From Hyphomicrobiales bacterium (GTDB lineage Bacteria > Pseudomonadota > Alphaproteobacteria > Rhizobiales > Beijerinckiaceae): DNA of 64,000 nucleotides. The notes beneath the pieces were generated by a model, which was not told the origin of the DNA, did no database searches, and was given only the letters and a program-made list of their open reading frames with translations. The position numbers were made by a program, and so were the translations under genes. Location of the stretch: assembly GCA_930633525.1 (NCBI GenBank), contig CAKNFP010000001.1, positions 1,776,001 to 1,840,000 on the forward strand, in the 5' to 3' direction. Positions 1 to 14,155 of this stretch are shown here, piece by piece; positions within the stretch are counted from its first letter, which is position 1; each line of letters begins with the position of its first letter.

Positions 1-1208
1 TCGAGGCGGGCCTTCTCGCGCTCCAGCGCCGACTGGCGGGTCTTCGGGACGAGGCCCTTGAGGGCGAGTTCGCGGATGCCGACGAGTTCGTCGTTGATGA
101 AGTAGAGCTGCTGCTCGGCGGATTTGCGTTCGCGGTCGAGGCCGTCGATCTCGGCCTTGAGCTGGTCGACGCGGCCGTTGATGATATTGAGCTGGCCGGT
201 GATGGAGGCGCGGCGGTCGGTGAACTGGGCGGTCTCGTCGGTGATGACGCGCTTGACCACCGGGTCGTCGGGATGGCTGGCGAGGAGGGGAGGGAAGGTG
301 ATCTTCGGAGCGTCGTCGCGCTCGGCGACGAGGCGGGCCTCGAGCGCCAGGCCGGCATAGACCTGGTTGCGGACCGCGTCGCGGTTGGCGAGCGCTGTGG
401 TGTCCTCGAGGCGGAACAGGAGGTCGCCCTCCTCGACCTTCTGGCCTTCGCGGACCTTGATCTCCTTGATGATGCCGCCTTCCAGATGCTGCACGACCTG
501 GCGCTTGCTCTCCACGGAGATGACGCCCGGCGCCACGACGCCGGCGTCGATATTGGCGAGCGCCGCCCAGCCGCCCATGACACCGAAGGTGAAGATGATG
601 ATGGCATAGCCGGTCAGCGCGATGCGGCGGAAGTCGCTGTCGGGCTTGCCGGGGGAGCTGGTGCCGCCGTTGCCGCCTTCCGCCTTGTCGCGCTTGCCCC
701 TGCCCAGGCTGAGGGCGGCATCGAGGGCCTTTTCGAGGAAGGGCAGCCTGCGCCCGGCCTTGTCCGGCTGGGCGTTGGCGAGGGCGCCGGCTCCACCCTG
801 TCCGGGGTTGCCTTGTCCTGGATTACCTTGGATGGCCTCATGCGCCGGCACCTTCACCGGGGTGATGGCGGCGAAGGGGACCGAGCCGCTGGCACCGGAA
901 CCGCTCGTCTGTGGATCCCTTGCCAATCCCCCTTCTGGCGCGTGGCTGGCGGCGGGTTGCGCGCCGGCCGCAAGGGGAGGGGCCGGCTGGCTCATCGCGG
1001 GCTGGCTCATCATGGGCTGGTTCATCGCTGGCTGGCTTGCAGCCTGGCCCGGCGGAATGGGCTTGCCGAAGGTCAGCGGCCGTGGAAAGCGGGCGCTCTC
1101 GCTGTCGGCGCCGGCCGGGACGCCGCCGGGGGCGGGCTGATGGGGAGCCTGCCCTGTCTGGGCATTGACCGGCTGGGCATTCACCGGGGGGATCTTCTGC
1201 TCGGACAT
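1..1208 (-). CDS. HlyD-family type I secretion membrane fusion protein (partial, C-terminus beyond window)
   Basis: This is the periplasmic adaptor that links an inner-membrane ABC exporter to an outer-membrane TolC-type channel. The ATG at 1208 reads MSEQKIPPVNAQ, and 402 codons remain open to the window edge, so the C-terminus is missing. Residues 1 to about 190 form a Pro/Gln/Ala/Gly-rich, low-complexity cytoplasmic tail with repeated MSQPA/MNQPM-like units. One membrane helix follows at about 197-217 (ALTGYAIIIFTFGVMGG). Next comes the biotinyl-lipoyl-like hairpin typical of HlyD (GVISVESKRQVVQHLEGGII) and the start of a coiled coil. The ABC exporter gene lies 245 bp upstream on the same strand, so the two probably form one exporter. 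The N-terminal tail is much longer than the few dozen residues usual in the family. The family call is firm; the role of the tail is unknown. Confidence 0.93.
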   Translation of the reverse strand, partial: MSEQKIPPVNAQPVNAQTGQAPHQPAPGGVPAGADSESARFPRPLTFGKPIPPGQAASQPAMNQPMMSQPAMSQPAPPLAAGAQPAASHAPEGGLARDPQTSGSGASGSVPFAAITPVKVPAHEAIQGNPGQGNPGQGGAGALANAQPDKAGRRLPFLEKALDAALSLGRGKRDKAEGGNGGTSSPGKPDSDFRRIALTGYAIIIFTFGVMGGWAALANIDAGVVAPGVISVESKRQVVQHLEGGIIKEIKVREGQKVEEGDLLFRLEDTTALANRDAVRNQVYAGLALEARLVAERDDAPKITFPPLLASHPDDPVVKRVITDETAQFTDRRASITGQLNIINGRVDQLKAEIDGLDRERKSAEQQLYFINDELVGIRELALKGLVPKTRQSALEREKARL

Positions 1209-1452
1209 CAACCACGCTCCAGCGTCACACACAGGCTCCGGCCGGGAGACAGCGCCGGAGAAACAACAGGGACCACAGCTGTACGGACCACGATGGCGGC
1301 CGGGACAGCGATCAAATAGACACCGGCGCCGCCGCTCGCCAGAGGAAGCCCGCCGGCTCCGATCACATCGGTGTTAGTCTCGGGCATCCGCTACCGGCTT
1401 TCGGCTTCGACGACCGGCTTCGGCATCGATGCGGTATCGCCGTTCTGTCGTC

Positions 1453-3234
1453 TCAGCCCGGCGCGGCCGCCGCGGCGATGCCGGGCTGGCCGGGAGCCGC
1501 CGTCATCGGTCCTGCGCCCTGCGGCCCGACGATGCGCGGCCCGAGTACCTTGGCCAGCACCTCGTCGCGCGGCCCGAAGGCCTGCACGCCGCCTTCCGCC
1601 AGCACCAGGATGGCATCGCACAAGGCCAGCGAATTGGTCTTGTGGCTGATCAGGATGACCGTGCATCCGGCCATCTTCAACTGCCGGATCGCCGCCATCA
1701 GCGCCTGCTCGCCGGCCGCGTCGAGGCTCGCGTTCGGCTCGTCCAGCACCAGGATCGGCGGCGAACCGTAAAGCGCCCGCGCCAGACCGACGCGCTGGCG
1801 CTGGCCGCCCGACAGGGCCTGCCCACCTTCGCCGATCTGCGTGTTGTAGCCATCCGGCAGCCGCTGGATCATCTCATGCACGCCGGCCAGCTGCGCCGCC
1901 CCCACGATTCCCGCCTCGTCCATGTCGCCGAAGCGCGCGATGTTCTCGGCGATCGAGCCGGAGAACAGCTCCACGTCCTGCGGCAGATAGCCGAGGAAGC
2001 GCCCGAGCTGCTCGGGATCCCAATGGGTCAGGTCCGACCCGTCGAGCCGCACGCAGCCCGCCGCCGCCGGCCAGACCCCGACAAGCGCCCGCGCCAGGCT
2101 CGATTTGCCCGCCGCACTCGGCCCGATGACACCCAGCACCGTGCCCGCCGTGACCGAGAAGGAAACGCCCTTCAGGACCGGCATGTCCCGCGTCGGCACC
2201 CGCACGATCAGGTTCTCGACCGCGATGTCGCCCTTCGGATCCGGCAGCCGCATGCGCGCGCCAGGGGGCGGCAGGGCCCGCAGCAGGCCCTGCACACGCT
2301 CATAGGCCGAGCGCATGTTGACCAGCGACTTCCAGTTGCTGATCGCCATCTCGATCGGCTGCACGCAGCGCCCCACGATGATCGACGCCGCGATCATCAT
2401 GCCCGGCGAGATCTCCCGCTTGATCGCCAGATACGCCCCGACCCCCAGGATCAGGCTCTGCATGAAGGCGCGGTTGAACTTGATGCCGGCCATCAGCCCG
2501 CCGGCCCGGTCGGACGCCTGTGCCTGGTGGCCGAGCGCGTCGTAGTGGTGCTTCACCCACTTCTCGCGCAGCCGTCCCACCATCCCCATCGCCTGCAGCA
2601 CCTCCGCGTTGCGGAAGGTGGTCAGCGCCTGGTTCTGCGCCGTGATATTGGCCTTCGTCGCCTGGTCCAGCACCGGCCGCGTCGCCCGGTCGTTGGCGAA
2701 AGCCAGCGCCGCCGAGATCAAGGCCGTGATGATCGCCAAAACCCCGTACCACGGATGCAGCAGTGTCGCCGCGATGATGTAGATCGGCACCCACGGCACG
2801 TCGCAGAAGGTGATCAGCCCCTGGCCCGTGAAAAACTCCCGGATGCTGTCGACGTCGCGCAGGGCCTGGACATGGCCAGGCCCGGGCTGGCGCAGCGAGG
2901 CGCGCTGCACCGCGTTGAACGCATCCGCGTTCACCTCCTCGTCAAACCGCACCCCCGCCCGCACCAGAAGCCGCGTCCGCAGACTCTCCAGCGAGGCCGA
3001 AACAAGATACAAAATCGCGATCAGGATCGTCAGCACGACAAGCGTCGTCAGGTTCCGGCTCGACAGGACGCGGTCATAGACCTGCATCATGTACAACGAA
3101 CCCGTCAAACCCAGAAGATTGATGAAAAACGAAAAAATGATCGCCGTCACAAAGGCAGGACGCGTCGCTCGGATCGCCGCGTTCAGCGCCGTCGGCGCCT
3201 TCTTACCCCCACCCATCATCCCCGCCTGCGACAT
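1453..3234 (-). CDS. Type I secretion system permease/ATPase, PrtD family
   Basis: This 593-aa half-transporter would energise export of unfolded proteins carrying C-terminal signals. The N-terminal half has the ABC type-1 membrane domain, with helices near residues 25-50 and 60-85 and more before 300. The C-terminal ATPase shows Walker A (GPSAAGKSS), the ABC signature (LSGGQRQR), Walker B (ILVLDEPNASLD) and the switch His (LISHKT). Length and layout match PrtD/RsaD-type exporters, with no N-terminal C39 peptidase-like domain. The ATG at 3234 was chosen over an in-frame TTG one codon upstream; a GGAG lies about 9 nt before it. The HlyD adaptor follows on the same strand and the putative cargo genes precede it, so it probably exports the bluetail-like protein and the DUF4214 protein. 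Confidence 0.96.
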   Translation of the reverse strand: MSQAGMMGGGKKAPTALNAAIRATRPAFVTAIIFSFFINLLGLTGSLYMMQVYDRVLSSRNLTTLVVLTILIAILYLVSASLESLRTRLLVRAGVRFDEEVNADAFNAVQRASLRQPGPGHVQALRDVDSIREFFTGQGLITFCDVPWVPIYIIAATLLHPWYGVLAIITALISAALAFANDRATRPVLDQATKANITAQNQALTTFRNAEVLQAMGMVGRLREKWVKHHYDALGHQAQASDRAGGLMAGIKFNRAFMQSLILGVGAYLAIKREISPGMMIAASIIVGRCVQPIEMAISNWKSLVNMRSAYERVQGLLRALPPPGARMRLPDPKGDIAVENLIVRVPTRDMPVLKGVSFSVTAGTVLGVIGPSAAGKSSLARALVGVWPAAAGCVRLDGSDLTHWDPEQLGRFLGYLPQDVELFSGSIAENIARFGDMDEAGIVGAAQLAGVHEMIQRLPDGYNTQIGEGGQALSGGQRQRVGLARALYGSPPILVLDEPNASLDAAGEQALMAAIRQLKMAGCTVILISHKTNSLALCDAILVLAEGGVQAFGPRDEVLAKVLGPRIVGPQGAGPMTAAPGQPGIAAAAAPG

Positions 3235-3353
3235 CAATCAAAGCTCCAATCCCGATAGGTCATCATACGGGGTTTCATAAGCACTGTATATTGTGACAAC
3301 CCAACTTATAGAGGCAATTACCACAACAGAGGCGGCTTATGAGAGGCGGTGCG

Positions 3354-3385
3354 CGAATGCGGCGGAGCATTCTCCGCCGCATTCG
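3354..3385 (-). terminator. Perfect 13-bp inverted repeat after the bluetail-like gene
   Basis: The arms 3354-3366 and 3373-3385 are perfectly complementary around a 6-nt loop. The structure sits about 60 nt past the stop of the minus-strand gene at 3445 and before the exporter gene. No T-tract follows on the minus strand, so it may be a 3'-end stabilising stem or partial terminator rather than a classical intrinsic one. Confidence 0.6.
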
Positions 3386-3444
3386 TAATCGCATGCCGGA
3401 TCAGGAAAATCCCGGCACGTCTGGACTTGTCCGGGTGTGGGACG

Positions 3445-5211
<1,767 letters not shown>

Positions 5212-5339
5212 TCAGTGCGTTAAGACTGTCGTATCGATTTTGTGCAAAAAGTATTGCGTACTTATGCAGTTTTTTGCTGATTGATATACTACGGAATGGA
5301 ATTGCGGGTTGCATGGGGCCGGAGATGGGGCGGCCGCCT

Positions 5340-6863
5340 TCAGCCGACGCGCAGGCGCGCCAGCGTCGGCAACAACTCGTCATGGAAGGTCGACAGACGC
5401 GCTTCGATCTCGGCGCGATTGGCGGCTTCATCCTGCAAGGGCGCGCCGTCCTTCATGAGACGTTGGCCCTGCGCCGCGAAGACCGACCAGATGAAGCCGA
5501 CCAGGTTTTCGGCCTTCTGGCGACGGGCCAGAAGCGCGAGCTGGCTGATGCGGTCGACCGCGATGGCGCTGCCCGTGACGGGCGAGGCGAGATACGACAA
5601 CTGGCCGCCGTGCCGCGCGGCATTGAGGACGGCATCGTTGAAATGGGCCGTGCCGACCGCGCGCGCTTCCTCGCCCTCTGAGGGAAGCGCCGGGCTCACG
5701 GCTCCCTGGCCGACGAGGATCAGCAGAGCCTGATGGATACGGGGCCAGCCGATGGTGGAGAGCGATGGCCTGTTCAGCAGGTCCCGGACGGTGCTGGGCC
5801 GCTCGGCGAGCGCCTCGACCAACGGATCGTAGATCGCTTCCTGCAAGCCGATCGTGCCGACCGGGGTGGTGATGGACCGCGCGATGGCCCGCGGCGCCGT
5901 CGACAGCACGAAGCGCTGCCCGGCCCAGGCCTCGAACAGCTGCGCGCCTTCCAGGGGCAGGCGCCCCCGCACGAAGAGATCGCGACGGAACGGGCGGTTC
6001 AGGATCATGTCACCGGCGAGATCGCGAAAGGCCGCGTCCTTGATCTCCGCGAGAAGCGCCCGCTGCGGCTCGGTGAAGTTGATGACATCGACCTGATCGG
6101 AGAGCTGGACCTGGCCAACATAGCTCAGCTTGGCGCCTTCGAAGTCGCGGCGCACGTCCGTGCAGTAGAACGGCGTCCAATCGGCATTGAGATATTCGTG
6201 GGCGATATAAGCCTTCTGTTGCTTGACCAGTCCGTCGAGCCGGCTGCCGACCGGAGGAGACTGGGTGAAGTAGCGGGCCTGGACGGTCTCCAGCCGCTTC
6301 GCGAAGTCAAGGCTCGCTTCGATCCGATCGAACAACGGGCCGGATTGCTGGTCGGCCGCGTCGATGAGCAGACGGCGCAGAGGCGCGGCGGCGGCCCAGC
6401 CGGGCAGGGCATTGTAGGAGACGTAAAGCAGGCCGCCGGTTTTTAGGCGTTTGCGCGCGATCTCACGAATGAGGGCGCGGTTCTCCGCCGACACCCAGCT
6501 ATAGACGCCGTGGAGCGCGATGATGTCGAAATCGCCGAGATCGGGATCGGCCGCGAGATCCGCGAAGCTTGCCTCGCGCAGGTCGATGCGCTCGCTGCGC
6601 GCGAGCCGCGCCAGGTCACAGGCACCCGCGATATGGGCGGGGTTGAAGTCGATGGCGGTCACCGAGACGTCGGGATTGGCGGCGGCGATGATATTGGCCG
6701 ACATGCCCTGGCCGCAGCCGAGTTCGAGATAGCGCAGCCGCCCGGACGGCGGCTTGACACCGGCGGTCAATGCCGCGAGCTGCAGGCTGATCGGCACGAG
6801 CTCGCGATAGAAGCCGTGCGTGTAGCCGACTTCCGTGACGTAGCCATCGCTCCAATCCGCCAT
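5340..6863 (-). CDS. Class I SAM-dependent methyltransferase with methyltransferase regulatory domain (PKMT-like)
   Basis: The 507-aa product has an N-terminal Rossmann methyltransferase fold. Motif I reads LELGCGQGMSANII (about residues 46-59), followed by an acidic VTAIDFNP and a FDIIALHGVYSWV motif near 135-150. A long middle and C-terminal section resembles the methyltransferase regulatory domain, then a winged-helix-like tail. In rickettsiae this architecture belongs to protein-lysine methyltransferases that modify the surface protein OmpB. Here it sits between the SapC/DUF4214 genes and the bluetail-like protein plus exporter, on the same strand, so methylation of a secreted surface protein before export is a reasonable inference. 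The target is not shown by the sequence. Confidence 0.88.
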   Translation of the reverse strand: MADWSDGYVTEVGYTHGFYRELVPISLQLAALTAGVKPPSGRLRYLELGCGQGMSANIIAAANPDVSVTAIDFNPAHIAGACDLARLARSERIDLREASFADLAADPDLGDFDIIALHGVYSWVSAENRALIREIARKRLKTGGLLYVSYNALPGWAAAAPLRRLLIDAADQQSGPLFDRIEASLDFAKRLETVQARYFTQSPPVGSRLDGLVKQQKAYIAHEYLNADWTPFYCTDVRRDFEGAKLSYVGQVQLSDQVDVINFTEPQRALLAEIKDAAFRDLAGDMILNRPFRRDLFVRGRLPLEGAQLFEAWAGQRFVLSTAPRAIARSITTPVGTIGLQEAIYDPLVEALAERPSTVRDLLNRPSLSTIGWPRIHQALLILVGQGAVSPALPSEGEEARAVGTAHFNDAVLNAARHGGQLSYLASPVTGSAIAVDRISQLALLARRQKAENLVGFIWSVFAAQGQRLMKDGAPLQDEAANRAEIEARLSTFHDELLPTLARLRVG

Positions 6864-6965
6864 GCGTCATTCCCCGCCTTTTCGTCTTGCCCGGGGAATT
6901 GTGATCAGCGGCGCTTGCAATGCAAGCGGCATGGAAAAGAACCTCCTGCATTTCCGCTGATACGA

Positions 6966-6992
6966 AAAAGCCCCGGCCTGACGGGCCGGGGC
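6966..6992 (-). terminator. Rho-independent terminator downstream of the SapC-family gene
   Basis: A perfect 9-bp GC stem (arms 6970-6978 and 6984-6992, 5-nt loop) is followed on the minus strand by TTTTT. It lies about 58 nt after the stop at 7050 and before the methyltransferase gene. It suggests that the DUF4214-SapC pair is one transcript and the methyltransferase starts another. Confidence 0.85.
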
Positions 6993-7049
6993 GAAAGCCT
7001 CGAAACGAACAATCGTTCCGGGGGAAAGGGCGGCGGGCCGCGCCTGCTG

Positions 7050-7838
7050 CTAGCTCAGATGCGAAAGGTCGAGCACGTCGCTCTCGAACTGGAACGGCGC
7101 GTTGTTGCCGCCGGCCTTGGCGGCCAGATCCGGGTATTTGCCGCCGATCGGCCCCTGCCGGAAATTGGCCCATGACAGGAGGTGGGCGTAGATCAGGGGG
7201 AGCGCGCCGGATTTGCGCAGGGCGTTGAAATCGGCGTCGGGGAGCTGATTGAGCTTCTTCTCGTCGACGACGCGAAGGCCCTGGATCTGGTGGCCGGTCC
7301 CATCCGGCTTGCGGATGACGATGCTGCGCTCCGCGAAAAGTCCACGCTCGCTGATTGCGAGGACGATGGCGCGGGTCGCGGCAATCTTTTTCTGGATATG
7401 CTCCAGAAGCTGCATGCGCCGCTGCATGTGGGGCGTCAACTGGCCGTCGGTGGTGAAAACGGGATGTCCGCTCGGGTTCTTCAGATGCGGTGCGTCGGGA
7501 TCGAAGAAAACCAGCATGCGCTTTTGCTCGCCCTCCGGTTGCTCAACGCTTCCGAACACGAAGGGATAACGACGGACATGCGCGGGAATATAAGTCGCCA
7601 GCCAACGGCCGTCGTCCGCGACATAGGCATTTTTGCCGGGCTCAACCCCGAGAAGGGCAGAAGGGAGGTCGCTCTTGTTGTCGGGAAAGATGATGGGATA
7701 TTCGCGCGCAATATCGCTCATCTCGTCGAAGACGAACGGGGCAAGCGTCTCAGCTTTGGCGTGGCTGTAGTCGTTGCTTTCGAAGACCCGCAGATCGCGG
7801 TGTTGCGCGAAGGTCAGGGGAATCTGCGTCTTGAACAT
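7050..7838 (-). CDS. SapC family protein
   Basis: This 262-aa soluble protein starts MFKTQIPLTFAQHRDLRV, the typical beginning of the SapC family, named after a gene in the Campylobacter surface-layer protein region. Family landmarks visible are FAQHRDLRV, FVFDEMSDIAREYPIIFPD, PAHVRRYPFVFG and a terminal FQFESDVLDLS. There is no signal peptide or membrane helix. The biochemical role of the family is not established. GGGAG lies 6 nt before the ATG. It follows the DUF4214 gene with 72 bp between them, which contains a perfect hairpin. Because SapC relatives often neighbour secreted or S-layer genes, an accessory role for the upstream secreted protein is inferred. Confidence 0.92.
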   Translation of the reverse strand: MFKTQIPLTFAQHRDLRVFESNDYSHAKAETLAPFVFDEMSDIAREYPIIFPDNKSDLPSALLGVEPGKNAYVADDGRWLATYIPAHVRRYPFVFGSVEQPEGEQKRMLVFFDPDAPHLKNPSGHPVFTTDGQLTPHMQRRMQLLEHIQKKIAATRAIVLAISERGLFAERSIVIRKPDGTGHQIQGLRVVDEKKLNQLPDADFNALRKSGALPLIYAHLLSWANFRQGPIGGKYPDLAAKAGGNNAPFQFESDVLDLSHLS

Positions 7839-7855
7839 GGCTGTCTCCCAAGCAG

Positions 7856-7880
7856 AACGGGGGGCGTAATGCCCCCCGTT
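7856..7880 (-). promoter_or_regulatory. Perfect 10-bp stem-loop between the DUF4214 and SapC genes
   Basis: The arms 7856-7865 and 7871-7880 pair perfectly around the 5-nt loop GTAAT. It lies 30 nt past the stop of the abundant-looking secreted protein gene and just before the SapC Shine-Dalgarno. On the minus strand no T-run follows, so read-through is expected. It probably stabilises the upstream mRNA or lowers downstream expression. Confidence 0.6.
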
Positions 7881-7910
7881 CCCTTTTCACGCTGTATAAG
7901 CCGGTAAGAC

Positions 7911-10900
7911 TTAGGCGTAAATGATGTTGAACTGCGACACGTCGTTCGCGTCCGCGCCGAGACCGACGAGCGTGATGTGGCCATCGAACGCGCCGGTGAT
8001 CGAGGAGATCTCCAGGTTGCCGGCATTGTCCACGAAGGACAGCTGGCCAGCGCTGGTGACACCGAAGTGCGAGAGGTCAATACGGTCGGAGGTGGTGGTG
8101 TTGCCGCCTTCGAAGTGATCGATCCTGACAGCGCCGACATCATCACCGATGAAGGTGAACAGCTCGCGGGTGTCGAAGCTGATCTCCGCCTGGAAGTCCA
8201 CCGTGGTCGTTGCGCCGATCAGGTAGGAAACGGCCACCAAACCATAGTCAGCATCCGAAGCGTCGACGGTGAGCTTGGCGACAACGCCAGACACGTCGAG
8301 CGTTGTGAAGCTGGCGAGGTTGTCGACCAGCTCAACGTTGGCGTCGTGACCAGCAACAACAGTCAGCGAGACCAGAGAGGCGTTGCCAGAAGTATCGCCG
8401 AACACGTCAACATCGACGTCGTTGCCCGCTGTAATGGCGGCGGTCACAACACCGGTGTTGATGAACTGAACGTCCGAGTCGACGCCAGCGGTCGCTGTGA
8501 AGTTGAAGGAACCCACAACGTCATGGAAGTGGGCGTCAGCATCCTGGCCGCCTTCGACGTTGACGGTCTCGAGGTTGTCGAAGCCCTCTGGGAGAACCAG
8601 CGGAATCTCCGGCGTACCATCAACCGTGTTGATGACCGGATTTGTCCAGGTTCCGAGCGAAACCGCCAGCGGGAAGCTGGTGATAGCGCCCTGGTCACCG
8701 ACGTCGTTCCACACGATCTCAACATCCGATCCGTTCCGAGTAGCGGTCAGAAGGGAGCTGAGGTTAGTGTTGAGATAGTCCACGATATCCTGGGCAACGC
8801 CCTGATCGTGCAGCGGGTTGTTCGGACCAATACCGATGCCGAAGGGGTAAGCAAACGACGTCGCGTACGGCACGATGATCGAGCCGCCAGGGAAGCCCTG
8901 GCTCGACAAGACAATCTGACCGGCGGTCTGAGTCGTCTGGCCAAACCCAGCTCCGACGCTCTGTGCAACTACGTTAACGGTGAAAGTTGCAACTTCCTGC
9001 GTACCAGGATCGTACGGCACGCCTGCAACGCCTTCGAACTCGACGTAAGCGTCGCCGCCGGCCACGACGTTGACGTTCCGAAGAGCGTTCAGGTCGTCGC
9101 TGGGAGCAGATGCATCGAACTCAACCGCTGCATTGGCAGCTGCCGCGACATCAACGTTCTGAAGGGCAGCGATGTCGTCAGCGCCGTCGACGTCCAGCCA
9201 CACATTGCCGTTGACCAGATCGGATGTCTCGATCTTGAGGGTGGTCAGAGCTGCGCCGGCGAGGGAGTCGAGGTCGATGGTGCCATCGAAGGACTTGACG
9301 GTCAGCTCAGTGACATTGCCCGCGTCAAGCCTGAGATCTTCGATGCCAAATTCGGCGTCGATTGTCAGGACGTCAACGGTGTTCGCCAGCGTCAGCCAGC
9401 TGCCATTGCCATCGACGAACGTGAAGTCGAGCGTCTCAACCTGCTCGCCGATGCCGTCAAGGTCGAGCGTGGCGTTGCCGCCGAGGCTAATGTTGTCGAC
9501 GAACTCGAGGTTGCCGTCAAAGCCGACCAGCGTGGTGCCGGTGAAGTCGAGGTCGTTGATGTCGCCGTGGTTGTAGACCTTAGCGAGCGCGAATTCATTG
9601 TCGCCCGCACCGAGGTCGACGAGGATGTCCGCGCCGTCGAAGTTGGCGCCGTTCACGACAACACGGTCGTCGCCAGAGCCGGTTTCGACGCTCTCGAGAA
9701 CTTCAGAACCGCGCAGGTCGATATTGAGGTCGCCCGTCATGGCGCTCGCGTCGAGCGTCTTGAGGCTGTCCCACTGCTGCTGGAACCAGTTGCCGCGCAC
9801 GTTGAGATCGCCGTCACCATCGATGGTGAGGTTCTCGACGGTGCCGTGCAGGCCGTAGTTCACCTGCAAAAAGTTGTCGCCGGTGACCGTCAGCGCGAGA
9901 TCGGTGATGACATCAGCGCCGTTCGCGTAGACCCTCAGTTCCGCGCGGTTGTTCACGTCCTTGCCGACGCTGTTGAGCTCGACGTCCTGCGAGGCATGAT
10001 CGCTGCCAAGGGCATCGGCCGCGTAGGAGGCCGTGAATGTGGTGTTGCCGGACACCTTGTCCATGCCAAGCAGAACTGAGTTCTGAATGTTGTACACATT
10101 CAGATCGCGCGTCGAATTGACGTTGCGGACTTCCTCGACACCTTCAACACGGGTCATGTCGAGCTGGGCGCTGTTCCCACGCGAGGTGAGCTGGAACTCT
10201 TCGATGTTCTTGATCGACGGATCGTGCGAACCGGCAATCCCGACGAAGCCGTTGAGCTCGGCCTTGAGGATATCACGGCCGTCGCCGCCGTCGAGCGTGT
10301 CAACGCCCTGCAGCGTCTGCGTGGCGAAAGCGCCGTCGAGGCCCGTCGCGAGCGGAGCGGAGAAGATCTCGTCGCTGCCCGTGCCCACGATGTGGTCGGC
10401 ATTGACGGTCAGGTCGTAGGTCGTCGTGAGAACGTCGAACAGCGAGCCCGTGTAGATGCCTTCGCCATCGGCAGCGGCCAGGAGGAAGCCCTCGATATAG
10501 GGCTCAGTCGACGTGATGAACTCCGGCGACTGCGAGAAGCCAACGATGACCTCGGCGAGCGTGCCGCCGTTGTTGAGGACTTCGGTCCAGAAGGCGATGC
10601 CGGCGGCGTCGCCCGGACGACCGAGGACGTTGGCATAGAGACGGCCAACGATTTCGGAGTTGGACAGGCCACCATACTGGGCCTCGAATTCGCCGGAATC
10701 GCCGAAGGCGCTGGCGAGCACGGGCAGGGACATGCCCTGGCCACCGTCATAGGCGGCGACCCAGAAATTGAGGCCATCGGAATCCGGCACGCGGCCGAAG
10801 ACGGCCTGATAGAGGCGTACCACCGGGTCGACGGTGACGGTCGCGGCAGCCAGCAGAGCGTTGTCGAGAGCTTCGACGCTGGGGCTGTCCGAATAGGCGG

Positions 10901-10976
10901 CAACCTGTGCCTCGGAAGGAGTGGACCGGAGGATCCCCTCGTAGCGCTGAATGACGATATCAGCAGGAATTGTCAT
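7911..10976 (-). CDS. Large DUF4214-containing secreted protein, candidate surface-layer/type I secretion substrate
   Basis: This 1021-aa acidic, Val/Asp/Thr/Asn-rich protein is almost free of Cys and Lys. Two DUF4214 modules lie near residues 50-90 and 90-150 (VRLYQAVFGRVPDSDGLNFW, VGRLYANVLGRPGDAAGIAFW). A long beta-rich section with many short LxVxNxxxL-like strands follows, reminiscent of S-layer-type or RTX-like solenoids but without clear GGXGXDXXX nonapeptides. The C-terminus (VSQFNIIYA) has the hydrophobic end typical of type I secretion signals, and there is no N-terminal signal peptide. AAGAGG lies 5 nt before the ATG. The all-minus neighbourhood with SapC, methyltransferase, PrtD and HlyD genes supports secretion through that exporter. 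S-layer identity is inferred from size, composition and context. Confidence 0.9.
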   Translation of the reverse strand: MTIPADIVIQRYEGILRSTPSEAQVAAYSDSPSVEALDNALLAAATVTVDPVVRLYQAVFGRVPDSDGLNFWVAAYDGGQGMSLPVLASAFGDSGEFEAQYGGLSNSEIVGRLYANVLGRPGDAAGIAFWTEVLNNGGTLAEVIVGFSQSPEFITSTEPYIEGFLLAAADGEGIYTGSLFDVLTTTYDLTVNADHIVGTGSDEIFSAPLATGLDGAFATQTLQGVDTLDGGDGRDILKAELNGFVGIAGSHDPSIKNIEEFQLTSRGNSAQLDMTRVEGVEEVRNVNSTRDLNVYNIQNSVLLGMDKVSGNTTFTASYAADALGSDHASQDVELNSVGKDVNNRAELRVYANGADVITDLALTVTGDNFLQVNYGLHGTVENLTIDGDGDLNVRGNWFQQQWDSLKTLDASAMTGDLNIDLRGSEVLESVETGSGDDRVVVNGANFDGADILVDLGAGDNEFALAKVYNHGDINDLDFTGTTLVGFDGNLEFVDNISLGGNATLDLDGIGEQVETLDFTFVDGNGSWLTLANTVDVLTIDAEFGIEDLRLDAGNVTELTVKSFDGTIDLDSLAGAALTTLKIETSDLVNGNVWLDVDGADDIAALQNVDVAAAANAAVEFDASAPSDDLNALRNVNVVAGGDAYVEFEGVAGVPYDPGTQEVATFTVNVVAQSVGAGFGQTTQTAGQIVLSSQGFPGGSIIVPYATSFAYPFGIGIGPNNPLHDQGVAQDIVDYLNTNLSSLLTATRNGSDVEIVWNDVGDQGAITSFPLAVSLGTWTNPVINTVDGTPEIPLVLPEGFDNLETVNVEGGQDADAHFHDVVGSFNFTATAGVDSDVQFINTGVVTAAITAGNDVDVDVFGDTSGNASLVSLTVVAGHDANVELVDNLASFTTLDVSGVVAKLTVDASDADYGLVAVSYLIGATTTVDFQAEISFDTRELFTFIGDDVGAVRIDHFEGGNTTTSDRIDLSHFGVTSAGQLSFVDNAGNLEISSITGAFDGHITLVGLGADANDVSQFNIIYA

Positions 10977-11468
10977 GGTAACCTCTTGATCAAAAAGGCG
11001 TTAAGCCAACTGCTGCCAGAATCGTCAGCGCAGCCTGCAAGAGGCTATACAGTGATTACCATACTGCTGTAAATGTCTTTTATATGCAGAGCTTAAGCGC
11101 TGTCTGAGGGCGCGAGGGGGCGGGAAGCTGCAAAAAGCGAGGCAAATCAGCGGGGTATGACGTCGTTTTGGTGGGCATTAAAAGAGGCGGTTTCCTCTGA
11201 AATAGATGGTGAACAGGAGGTTTATGGCGTGCTCTCCACGCGCGCCGTGTCCGCCGGCACGGTTTAGCGAGAGGTGTTCTTGCTGAACTGGGTCAGCCTA
11301 CCTGTCGTTTCTGATCGGGGATGAATGGCCAAGTTGCCGATCCGATGGCGTGGTCGTTCGCGCGGCGGCGAAATCTGTAGATGAGGGGTAATGTTCTTGA
11401 TCTTGATGTTGCAAAGACTTAGAATGCGAAATGGTGATCACAAGCTGAGCTGATGTCTGGGAAGCCTG
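10977..11468. other. Divergent intergenic region (492 bp)
   Basis: No convincing gene is present. It separates the DUF4214 gene (minus) from the XRE regulator gene (plus) and must hold both promoters. The part next to the DUF4214 start is AT-rich. A short 5-bp stem lies at 11183-11198. I see no clear operator palindrome. Confidence 0.6.
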
Positions 11469-11768
11469 ATGTATGGAAATCCGCAAAGGCGTAGCGCCAA
11501 TGACGTGCAGGAGCTTCGCCGCGCAGCCGGCCGTTGGCTGAAACAGCGACGGGAAGCATGCAATCTGTCGCAGCGTGATCTCTCTACGCTTGTGGGCACG
11601 GATTACTACACCTTCATTTCCCAGCTTGAGACCGGCCGCGGACGTATTCCCCCGGATCGATACCGTGTGTGGGCCGAGGCCCTGCAGATGGAGCCGAAGG
11701 AGTTCGTCCGGCAGATCCTGCAGTTCTATGATCCCGCCACCTACGAAATCCTCTTCGAAGACACCTGA
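11469..11768 (+). CDS. XRE-family helix-turn-helix regulator
   Basis: The 99-aa product is a single lambda-repressor-like HTH domain: LKQRREACNLSQRDLSTLVG (about residues 24-43) then YYTFISQLETGRGRIPPDRY as recognition helix and scaffold, with a short acidic tail. No ligand or peptidase domain is present. It is transcribed away from the large secreted protein gene and the next gene starts about 90 bp later. It is therefore the natural candidate to control the divergent surface-protein operon or its partner gene. Target sites cannot be seen. Confidence 0.87.
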   Translation: MYGNPQRRSANDVQELRRAAGRWLKQRREACNLSQRDLSTLVGTDYYTFISQLETGRGRIPPDRYRVWAEALQMEPKEFVRQILQFYDPATYEILFEDT

Positions 11769-11861
11769 TGGCTGTCCGGGGCATGTGTGCCCTGGTGCAT
11801 TCTTATTGTTTGCCGGGGCCTGTTCGGCCCTCCCGCGGCGCGCAGTTATCTTGGGATCGGT

Positions 11862-13403
11862 ATGGCATCCAACGTCGCCCAGCTTTTCTCATTTCGTCCC
11901 CGTTCGAACGACTGGAGCAACCAGGAGCTCGCGGAGTTCTACCGGGTGGAGGCCTCGCTTGTGCAGGCAGGGCTCCTGATCGACACGGATCGCGGCATCA
12001 CGGATGAGAACGAACCCTGGTTCGTCTTCTGCAATTCCGAGACTGGCGACGTCATTATTCATTTCGCACGCATCGATGGGGCCTATATGGCGGCCAGCGC
12101 CGCTTTCGACGGCGTGCTGCGCGGCCGGGATTTCCGCTCGGTCGTCGAGGCGCTTCTGAGCCGGCATCCCCTCGTCATTCCGCAGGCCCGGGACAACATC
12201 CGGCTGCATCCGAGTTCCTTGCTCGTCGCGCTCGTCGCCACCGCATTCTTCAAGCTGTCGGATGTGGACGCCCAGGCGAGTGAGGCCGACGGGAAGGGCA
12301 CGGATGGTGTTTCTGCGCGGGAGATCTGGATCAAGTCCGAAGGGGACGTGAAACAGGCGAGCATCCAGCTTGACCGTCGCCATGTCGCCGTTGTCCTGGC
12401 CGCGATGACATTCGCGGTGACGCATGATTTCAACGGCGACTGGACACACTGGCTGAGCAAGGCGGCGGATTGGCTCGACCAGGATTCCAGCCCCTCGAAC
12501 GTCGCGGAGGCCCCAAGGCTGGCAAGCGACCTGATCGAGTTCGCGAATTTGGCGGACACAGCGTCGGATGTCTCGCCAGCGCGCGTGGAGCATGTCAGCA
12601 TTCTGCCGCTCGATGGCGGGCATCTTGAGCAACTGGCGGCATTGTTCGGCGATAAGCTGTCCTTGCTTAGCCTGCTGACCAGTCTGATGAACGGAACGCA
12701 GCCGGCCGAGAAGGCTGGCGGCTCAGGGGTTGAAGTGCCGGGCGCCGTCGCGGTGGTTGAGGATCTGAGCACCTATCGCCAGGAAGCGACCCACAGTGGC
12801 TCATCCGGTCCCGCCGAAACGGCTCCGGAGCTGCTGGCGGGGCATGAGCGTGGAGCAACGACCGAGCAGAAGGCCGAAAGCGCTGAAGTGGTGACGGTGG
12901 TGCTCAGCCAGTCTTCGGAGCGGTCGTCATTGCCGGTCGTCGAAGCGGTCCGCTATGTCGAGAACAGCGTACTGGCCTCTGTGGATACCCGGGAGATCCT
13001 GAAAGTCGGTGACGGCTTGCTGGCGTCCTTGACGAGCAGTGATGGCGCGTTGGTTTTCGTAGCTGATGTGGCCCCTGAAACGGGGCTGACCACGCAATCC
13101 GGGCAGACCGGCAACGAACAGGTCAGCGGCCTGGCGGCGAAGATCGAGGCGCTGTTCGGGGACAATCGCCCTCTCCACGCTTTTCACGACAATGCTGACG
13201 ACTACAAGAGTGTCATGGCGACCTTCAAGGAGAGGAACGCCGATTTCGAGTTGGCCCTGTCAGGAAAAGACATCGTGTTGTACGACCTGACGCCGGATGT
13301 GCACACCGGGGACGCCTTGAGCTTTGTCACCTGGACATTCGGGGATGGTTCGACGCTAAGCCTCATAGGGGTTTTGCCGCACGAGTTCGCCATCGCGGCC
13401 TGA
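11862..13403 (+). CDS. Protein of unknown function downstream of XRE regulator
   Basis: This 513-aa product has no recognised domain. The N-terminal 130 residues (FYRVEASLVQAGLLIDTDRG, PWFVFCNSETGDVIIHFARI, YMAASAAFDGVLRGRDFR) form a compact, probably conserved module. A hydrophobic stretch HPSSLLVALVATAFFKL follows at about 118-134 and could be one membrane helix. The remaining residues are Ser/Ala/Glu-rich, then a second folded part ends the protein. The ATG at 11862 is preferred to an upstream in-frame ATG at 11787 because the added residues look non-coding. It shares strand and spacing with the XRE gene and is divergent from the secretion locus. I cannot assign a function; a sensor or anti-regulator partner for the XRE protein is only a guess. 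Confidence 0.75.
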   Translation: MASNVAQLFSFRPRSNDWSNQELAEFYRVEASLVQAGLLIDTDRGITDENEPWFVFCNSETGDVIIHFARIDGAYMAASAAFDGVLRGRDFRSVVEALLSRHPLVIPQARDNIRLHPSSLLVALVATAFFKLSDVDAQASEADGKGTDGVSAREIWIKSEGDVKQASIQLDRRHVAVVLAAMTFAVTHDFNGDWTHWLSKAADWLDQDSSPSNVAEAPRLASDLIEFANLADTASDVSPARVEHVSILPLDGGHLEQLAALFGDKLSLLSLLTSLMNGTQPAEKAGGSGVEVPGAVAVVEDLSTYRQEATHSGSSGPAETAPELLAGHERGATTEQKAESAEVVTVVLSQSSERSSLPVVEAVRYVENSVLASVDTREILKVGDGLLASLTSSDGALVFVADVAPETGLTTQSGQTGNEQVSGLAAKIEALFGDNRPLHAFHDNADDYKSVMATFKERNADFELALSGKDIVLYDLTPDVHTGDALSFVTWTFGDGSTLSLIGVLPHEFAIAA

Positions 13404-13430
13404 CAAGCGGCATCCATGATCGTGGATCCG

Positions 13431-13463
13431 AACCCGGGCCATTCCTGGCTCGGGTTTTGTTTT
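13431..13463 (+). terminator. Intrinsic terminator after the 513-aa protein gene
   Basis: A 10-bp stem with one G-T pair (arms 13431-13440 and 13447-13456, 6-nt loop) is followed by TTGTTTT on the plus strand. It lies about 28 nt after the stop codon at 13403. Confidence 0.8.
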
Positions 13464-13633
13464 GACTGATGGGTCCTGTTCATCGCGGCAGCGTTCATCC
13501 GATCAAGCGGAAACAGATCGGATGGGGGCTGAGCGCGGCTGCTTCTGGTGAAGCGCGCATCACCTCGGGCCAAGAAAAGGTGACGAATCATGAAGTGGAG
13601 CGAAGGCTCGCTTCGCTCAGATCGGCCGGCGCG

Positions 13634-14155
13634 TCAGATATCGATGCTGTCGTCCAGGCGGCGATCCGGCGTCCTCTGCACGGGCGGCGCGGTTTTCTCC
13701 ACAAGGATGGAGACGGTGTAGCGCTCGACGGTCTTTCCCAAAACGACTTCGTATTCGATCTGATCCTGGCCGCTGAAACCGTCACGCGACTGGTAGAAAA
13801 TGGCCTGCGCGGGCGCGGGGATGGCGGCGCAGGGGCCGCTGGCGCGCTTTGAAGATCCGCGGCGGACAACGAGAGTGCCGTACCCTGGCATCTTCTTGAC
13901 GCGAATTTCAGCCAGCGGGCCGCGGCTGCAATCGGGTTTCAGGCTCTGGTAGACAGCGACGCGGTTGGGCTTGCCGGTCTGCACCCGCAGCGTACGGTAG
14001 AGAACGGCTTCGGCGAGCGCCGTCGAGAGGGGTGTCGAGCACACGAGCGCGCCAGCCGTGGCGAAAGTGCAAAGCGCCCTCAAGCCTCGAGCGGCAGGGG
14101 ACCGTACGACATGACGGCTGTCCAGTTCATTCAAGCGGCGAGCAACCCTATGCAT
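13634..14155 (-). CDS. Secreted protein of unknown function with cadherin-like motif
   Basis: The 173-aa product has a basic N-terminus and a hydrophobic segment (LRALCTFATAGALVCSTPL, about residues 26-44) ending near ALA, so an uncleaved or long signal peptide is likely. The mature part contains RDGFSGQDQIEYEVVLG, which resembles the GFSGTDSFTYTV motif of bacterial cadherin/Ig-like strands, and ends in a Pro/Arg/Asp-rich tail. It is a single gene, convergent with the 513-aa protein gene. No function can be assigned. The Cys pair in the mature part could form a disulfide. Confidence 0.7.
   Translation of the reverse strand: MHRVARRLNELDSRHVVRSPAARGLRALCTFATAGALVCSTPLSTALAEAVLYRTLRVQTGKPNRVAVYQSLKPDCSRGPLAEIRVKKMPGYGTLVVRRGSSKRASGPCAAIPAPAQAIFYQSRDGFSGQDQIEYEVVLGKTVERYTVSILVEKTAPPVQRTPDRRLDDSIDI

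Follow-up and report, generated by a model that had tools for sequence, protein, structure and literature searches.

A Chelatococcus gene cluster joining an RsaA-type S-layer-like protein and type I exporter genes to a SapC-family gene and a methyltransferase of the outer-membrane PKMT family

We have analyzed a window of 64,000 nucleotides from a Chelatococcus chromosome (7.16-Mb genome; contig CAKNFP010000001.1, positions 1,776,001 to 1,840,000), in which a gene cluster brings together an S-layer-like protein (SLP), an exporter, a SapC-family helper and an MRD methyltransferase. On balance, with a confidence just above even, we read the cluster as a type I secretion locus for an S-layer-like protein of the RsaA type, with an added lysine-modification step. 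Coat-type genes and MRD genes adjoin in other genera too, which suggests that methylation may precede export for some bacterial coats. The six genes lie on the minus strand in the transcription order slp, sapC, MRD, bluetail-like, PrtD and HlyD:

7911..10976, minus strand: slp, S-layer-like protein of 1021 amino acids (aa), RsaA-type by predicted fold, with two DUF4214 stretches
7050..7838, minus strand: sapC-family gene, 262 aa (PF07277, 210 bits, cut-off 28.9)
5340..6863, minus strand: MRD methyltransferase of the outer-membrane PKMT (OM-PKMT) family, 507 aa (PF10119, 94.7 bits, cut-off 25.5)
3445..5187, minus strand: bluetail-like protein, 580 aa (NF041519, 17.6 bits, under the cut-off of 21)
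1453..3237, minus strand: PrtD-type permease/ATPase of a type I secretion system (T1SS), 594 aa (TIGR01842, 731.5 bits, cut-off 510)
1..1232, minus strand: 5' part of the adjoining HlyD-type adaptor gene (HlyD_3), which continues past the left edge of the window (whole gene L004:9352-11232)

An earlier note on this DNA had described six same-strand genes in this order, and the open reading frames with their Pfam and NCBIfam matches bear this out; the span it gave, 1453..10976, holds five of them, the HlyD gene lying outside, from 1232 past the left edge. Its observation is confirmed, and its interpretation as a whole is partly supported. Together with a divergent pair of genes, coding for a helix-turn-helix (HTH) regulator and a 538-aa protein (R538), the cluster was compared in four Chelatococcus species. 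All eight genes are colinear in the genome of the window (G000) and in two others (G002 and G003), so their grouping within the genus is not chance. In the fourth genome (G001) six of the eight are found before the contig ends just inside PrtD, and the PrtD-HlyD pair is on a separate contig of 4,109 bases. Over six genes the open reading frames of G001 equal in length those of the C. asaccharovorans DSM 6462 locus.

The S-layer-like protein, SapC and the methyltransferase

The SLP is laid out as a helical N-terminal domain (about residues 5-170), which holds both DUF4214 stretches, and a beta-rich remainder. A Foldseek search with its predicted fold gave RsaA, the S-layer protein of Caulobacter (structures 5n8p, 6p5t, 6t72 and 6z7p), as all of the top seven matches. 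The N-terminal domain matched the lipopolysaccharide (LPS)-binding domain of RsaA across 180 residues, i.e., a helical domain of the LPS-anchoring type, as in RsaA, is predicted in the SLP. No signal peptide was seen by eye in the protein, and its C-terminus is conserved across the four species. No direct sequence match between the SLP and RsaA was obtained, either from the window protein alone or from a profile of the four species; a profile of 16 SLPs, with rows picked by hand (A6), matched RsaA at an E of 2.4e-63 with heavy composition bias. Because the predicted fold is of the RsaA type, the SLP is probably a type I-secreted surface protein, as the earlier note had proposed. The locus shares with the Caulobacter system this predicted fold, the anchoring-type N-terminal domain and an adjoining PrtD/HlyD exporter (the type I exporter of RsaA being RsaD/RsaE), but it adds SapC, the MRD enzyme and the bluetail-like protein, and the similarity of the SLP sequence is too low for direct detection. 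RsaA homologues with a T1SS operon have been described in methanotrophs (PMC13274458, in part); the available part of that article mentions neither SapC nor a methyltransferase, whereas the window cluster has both.

The sapC product matches PF07277 over residues 10-227 (profile positions 3-218 of 220), and its structure model, with a pLDDT of 87.3, had no match among the PDB structures searched. The name SapC dates from early S-layer work, and the Pfam family was named after the Campylobacter fetus protein. SapDEF of that bacterium are PrtD/HlyD/TolC-like, with SapF as the TolC-like member, which gives the C. fetus cluster a TolC-type gene that the locus studied here lacks. In C. fetus, sapCDEF is a conserved part of the S-layer locus, which also includes sapA/sapB (PMC4943207, in part), and sapC is described as part of the Sap transporter (PMC3887049, in part). 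The annotation of Chromatium okenii places a putative SapC gene apart from SapDEF-like genes (PMC6374484, in part). The Chelatococcus locus thus resembles that of C. fetus in that a SapC-named gene accompanies the transporter of an S-layer or S-layer-like locus, and differs from it in the MRD gene, the available parts of both C. fetus articles (PMC4943207, PMC3887049) mentioning no methyltransferase. At a second SapC locus of the same Chelatococcus genome (L005:5576-12710), two SapC genes in tandem share a strand with HlyD and PrtD, a DUF4214/RTX protein is encoded divergently, and MRD is absent.

The window methyltransferase belongs, judging from its sequence, to the OM-PKMT family, and the link to surface-protein methylation drawn in the earlier note holds at the level of the family. 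Its matches among PDB structures include PKMT2 (5doo, E 1.3e-21) and PKMT1 (5dnk, E 8.9e-21), the rickettsial enzymes that act on OmpB, a rickettsial surface-layer protein. Residues D72 and H118 are invariant among 13 MRD sequences and are the counterparts of the Asp/His pair D74/H118 with which PKMT2 binds S-adenosylmethionine (AdoMet) (PMC11784438, in part; by our count the PDB chain numbering in the PKMT2 alignment is one above that of the article). Two other residues of PKMT2, L75 and I102, are important for OmpB recognition (PMC11784438, in part) and are not kept, since the window enzyme has F73 and F100 as read from the same alignment. This does not exclude it from the family, because KmtA of Acinetobacter Tol 5 also lacks residues of the L75/I102 type, at least the first pair (PMC11784438, in part). 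By knockout, complementation and mass spectrometry, KmtA was found to methylate the trimeric autotransporter AtaA; a trimeric-autotransporter adhesin occurs in 27 of 142 enzyme-bearing genomes, and where such proteins are absent other outer-membrane proteins are possible substrates (PMC11784438, in part). OmpA, Sca1 and a porin are further substrates of the rickettsial enzymes (PMC11784438, in part). With KmtA-AtaA and PKMT1/PKMT2-OmpB the Chelatococcus locus shares the enzyme family, the AdoMet residues and a surface protein as the probable target; OmpB and AtaA, the principal substrates known so far, are however autotransporters (PMC11784438, in part), whereas the proteins encoded next to MRD here are presumably type I-secreted.

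In the open-licence literature of PubMed Central, as covered by titles and the starts of abstracts, we recognised no report linking a type I-secreted S-layer protein with an OM-PKMT, and no paper on DUF4214 with RsaA was found there. The earlier note was aware of no published unit of this kind. An S-layer locus that combines a SapC-named gene and a type I exporter has been published (sapCDEF of C. fetus); in the literature covered we found no report that adds a methyltransferase.

Methyltransferase neighbourhoods outside Chelatococcus

Contigs were scanned with the alignment of 13 MRD sequences and the best 80 of at least 592 loci were kept, which are therefore the ones nearest to the window's enzyme. 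After dropping L081 (C. asaccharovorans) as belonging to the same genus, 79 were left, 78 of them with a called MRD; in 5 of these the contig has no gene upstream of the MRD. The neighbouring genes come from our own selection of open reading frames, and a protein was called SLP-type at 40 bits or more to an iterated profile. In 10 of 73 loci the gene immediately upstream of MRD, on its strand, was SLP-type, compared with 9 of 1072 for other genes (Fisher p 3.5e-8). Eight of these ten proteins scored 209-474 bits; the other two (L083, 48 bits; L143, 46 bits) have RTX repeats without DUF4214. Six of the ten genomes have a DUF4214 match and four have none.

Within 5 kb of MRD, the 78 loci contained SLP in 22 cases, PrtD in 11, HlyD in 6 and SapC in 4, and SLP was present in all four loci with SapC. 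The exact order SLP-SapC-MRD was found in Bradyrhizobium MOS002 (L137) and in the gammaproteobacterium LSUCC0112 (L159), the SLP-type protein of the latter having an RTX repeat and no DUF4214; in L138 and L152 SLP and SapC are near MRD in different arrangements. Rhodospirillales TMPK1 (L136) has a divergent 538-aa/HTH pair, an SLP, MRD and a second SLP-like gene, with HlyD and PrtD on the opposite strand. The gene immediately preceding MRD in Tabrizicola (L100) has an RsaA_NTD match (E 2.6e-45), and PrtD and HlyD follow.

We also placed the label 'SLP near' on a tree of 105 MRD rows (103 of them different) made by a quick method, in which long branches were flagged. The label needs 12 changes, at least 6 of them forced by well-supported branches, and none of 500 shuffles was as low. 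It was set by hand on 19 rows, of which 4 are Chelatococcus; these include L089, which has no SLP match of its own and is kin of L090, and L086, L090, L137 and L159, where another gene sits between SLP and MRD, while L152, L099, L117, L154 and L156 were left unlabelled.

More distant MRDs were seen near a trimeric-autotransporter YadA-stalk protein (L030) and near an autotransporter (L044). Others lie near the type VI secretion system (T6SS) genes TssF, VipB or IcmF (L045, L048 and L051), and for this reason T6SS components may be further substrates.

Proposed mechanism and alternatives

In the mechanism that we propose, the SLP and the bluetail-like protein would be made in the cytoplasm without signal peptides, as far as can be read by eye. 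The MRD enzyme would then methylate lysines of the SLP, the bluetail-like protein or both before export, with AdoMet as donor, as its family and neighbourhood suggest. SapC, to judge from its neighbours, might aid the SLP, e.g., by chaperoning or assembly. From what is known of their families, PrtD and HlyD with a TolC encoded elsewhere would export the proteins in one step. According to the predicted fold, the SLP would be anchored on LPS by its helical N-terminus, in the manner of RsaA, with the coat formed by its beta part. As a guess, lysine methylation could tune the surface charge of the coat, its assembly, its amount or its proteolysis.

Whether the six genes act as one unit has to be weighed against the elements found between and before them, all on the minus strand:

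11043..11100, minus strand: near-invariant 58-bp block upstream of slp (alignment of four species)
6912..6928, minus strand: 17-bp inverted repeat CGCTTGCATTGCAAGCG upstream of MRD, exact in two species; the other two have one change each
6970..6992, minus strand: terminator-like hairpin between sapC and MRD

The 58-bp block is likely the promoter or leader of slp as a highly expressed gene. The next-best match of the inverted repeat in the window, and its sole other match, has 3 mismatches. Over window positions 1-14000 no RNA family was found with Rfam.

Several results weigh against our reading. Terminator-like hairpins stand 3' of slp and of sapC and the inverted repeat stands before MRD, so the six genes need not form one transcript; the region, though, has 9 terminator-like sites versus 8.4 in shuffles, i.e., no excess. 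Among 249 genomes of the order SapC was found in 37, MRD in 21 and both in 7, and the two lie within 10 kb of each other in just one of these seven, the genome of the window, which is the sole Chelatococcus of the sample (several of the assemblies are fragmented). None of 20 SapC neighbourhoods from other genomes of the order, drawn from 45 listed places, contained MRD, an SLP or a PrtD-type exporter, and one held a generic ABC gene (253 bits). The idea that SapC and MRD commonly pair up across the order was accordingly rejected. SLP homologues above 200 bits are present in 5 of the 249 genomes, that of the window included, and three of the five have no MRD match; in G169 an SLP homologue and MRD are on different contigs. 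In 48 of the 78 MRD loci none of the profiled genes lies within 5 kb. The exporter has a second copy about 2.5 Mb away, at an S-layer-like locus without SapC or MRD. No TolC-type gene was found in the locus, and in a genome-wide search for OEP, which gave three two-domain genes and one weak match, the nearest candidates were all more than 100 kb away; a TolC-type channel in the same cluster is not required of every T1SS. Lastly, the SLP has 9 lysines in 1021 residues versus 24 in 580 for the bluetail-like protein.

These results trim the earlier note in four respects. A self-contained locus is not supported, considering the missing TolC-type gene and the perfect second exporter copy; its unity is put in doubt by the hairpins and the palindrome; SapC as a fixed partner finds no support in the 20 sampled neighbourhoods; and the 1021-aa protein is weakened as the methylated target. 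In its favour, an SLP-type gene adjoining MRD recurs outside the genus.

Lysine content was considered as a possible sign of methylation. In 15 of 16 hand-picked cases the SLP-type proteins near MRD had K/(K+R) values of 0.53-0.90 (Roseibium, 0.10), compared with a median of 0.315 for other DUF4214 proteins (42 rows, some cut by locus ends and some counted twice via overlapping loci). However, three SLP-like controls from genomes of the order without an MRD match (L232, L233 and L235) had values of 0.83-0.97, the remaining three of the six controls being at 0.48 (L234), 0.24 (L236) and 0.33 (L237); L238 had no usable frame and does not enter the comparison. The bias belongs to the class of protein, independent of MRD, and was for this reason rejected as evidence, which also tells against our reading.

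The alternative that survives best, and which we hold possible at clearly less than even, is that MRD targets the bluetail-like protein and not the SLP; the cluster would then fall into two sub-units, SLP with SapC and, under an operator of its own, MRD with the bluetail-like protein. The terminator-like hairpin and the conserved palindrome between sapC and MRD fit this division. So do the lysines: across the four species the bluetail-like protein has 22-28 of them (K/(K+R) 0.61-0.74) and 7 invariant lysine columns, versus 7-10 (0.26-0.32) and 4 (K256, K339, K406 and K466) for the SLP, although high lysine is not specific to the neighbours of MRD. Against it, the bluetail-like gene is found only in Chelatococcus loci (9 matches in 160 loci, some being the same gene in overlapping loci), and elsewhere MRD pairs with SLP-type genes. 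In the four-species alignment this protein has similar segments (about three by eye), a linker of PVD repeats and a bluetail-like C-terminus; the PVD tripeptide linker (window 3859-4002) varies between species in length and sequence.

Rather unlikely, in our estimate, is an ordinary locus for a type I-secreted RTX adhesin or biofilm matrix, with no S-layer, in which MRD would modify the adhesin as KmtA does. DUF4214 is indeed abundant, this genome having 42 matches spread over about 25 places (and therefore likely coding for many further type I-secreted surface proteins), the C-terminal beta part of the SLP also matched alginate epimerase/lyase, serralysins and lipases in Foldseek, the MRD-adjacent SLP-type proteins of L083, L143 and L159 have RTX repeats only, and a crystalline layer cannot be read from sequence. 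The seven top matches to RsaA and the 180-residue match to its LPS-binding domain argue against it. We think it improbable that MRD and SapC lie side by side and have no function in common, MRD modifying, e.g., another outer-membrane protein or an LPS sugar: the MRD loci without a profiled neighbour, the SLPs in genomes without an MRD match and the second MRD of this genome, which lies close to a LysR gene and to one for an engA-like GTPase, would fit, but SLP-type genes are strongly enriched directly upstream of MRD, on separate branches of the tree, and the studied OM-PKMT members act on surface proteins (PMC11784438, in part).

Exporter copies, neighbouring genes and implications

The second exporter copy forms with the first a perfect repeat, and two further genes diverge from the cluster:

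1..3253: window part of a perfect 3,922-bp repeat of PrtD and HlyD, second copy at L261:12372-16293 (G000:C1:4274372-4278293)
11469..11768, plus strand: divergent HTH regulator, 99 aa (PF13560/PF01381), conserved in the genus
11787..13403, plus strand: divergent R538, 538 aa, without assigned family, conserved in the genus, with relatives in L089, L090 and L136

Beside the second copy lie an HTH gene, a gene for an SLP-like DUF4214 protein of 1173 aa and one for a 537-aa relative of R538. Within a genome the copies are identical over 3,922 bp (G000) and 4,186 bp (G002); in G003 a single mismatch and a single gap separate them along 3,949 bp. Between species, the PrtD of G000 shares 94% identity with that of G003, 94% with that of G002 and 91% with that of G001. 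Copies that are near-identical within a genome, when PrtD is 6-9% apart between species, look like a case of concerted evolution of the PrtD-HlyD pairs of the two S-layer-like loci, most simply by gene conversion. In G001 both loci stop at the same 95 bases and the exporter repeat has a contig of its own, as expected if an identical repeat collapsed in assembly. Since the second copy is without SapC or MRD, the comparison suggests that these two are tied to the substrate side of the locus rather than to its exporter.

R538 had no Pfam or NCBIfam match at E <= 0.01, and the 538-aa family copies of the window and TMPK1 had no Pfam match. A divergent pair of an HTH gene and a gene for a protein of about 538 aa recurs at SLP/T1SS loci of other genera and at the second Chelatococcus locus (L136:4711-6939, L089, L090, L261, L274, L275 and L277).

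Returning to the reading of the cluster as an RsaA-type secretion locus with a lysine-modification step, the enzyme family might have a wider role. We put forward tentatively, at somewhat under an even chance, that MRD/OM-PKMT enzymes are a general step of surface-coat methylation, paired with the export route of each bacterium: RsaA-type S-layers, autotransporters and perhaps T6SS. The RsaA-type cases, which we propose with the same reserve, would be this locus, Tabrizicola, Salinarimonas, Bradyrhizobium MOS002 and a gammaproteobacterium. The locus offers a setting to test SapC beside its likely partner, and the recurring pairing of MRD with RsaA- or RTX-type, presumably type I-secreted proteins is directly testable in free-living bacteria. 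If the proposal is true, lysine methylation in the cytoplasm, ahead of type I export, would be a feature of S-layers in many free-living Pseudomonadota.

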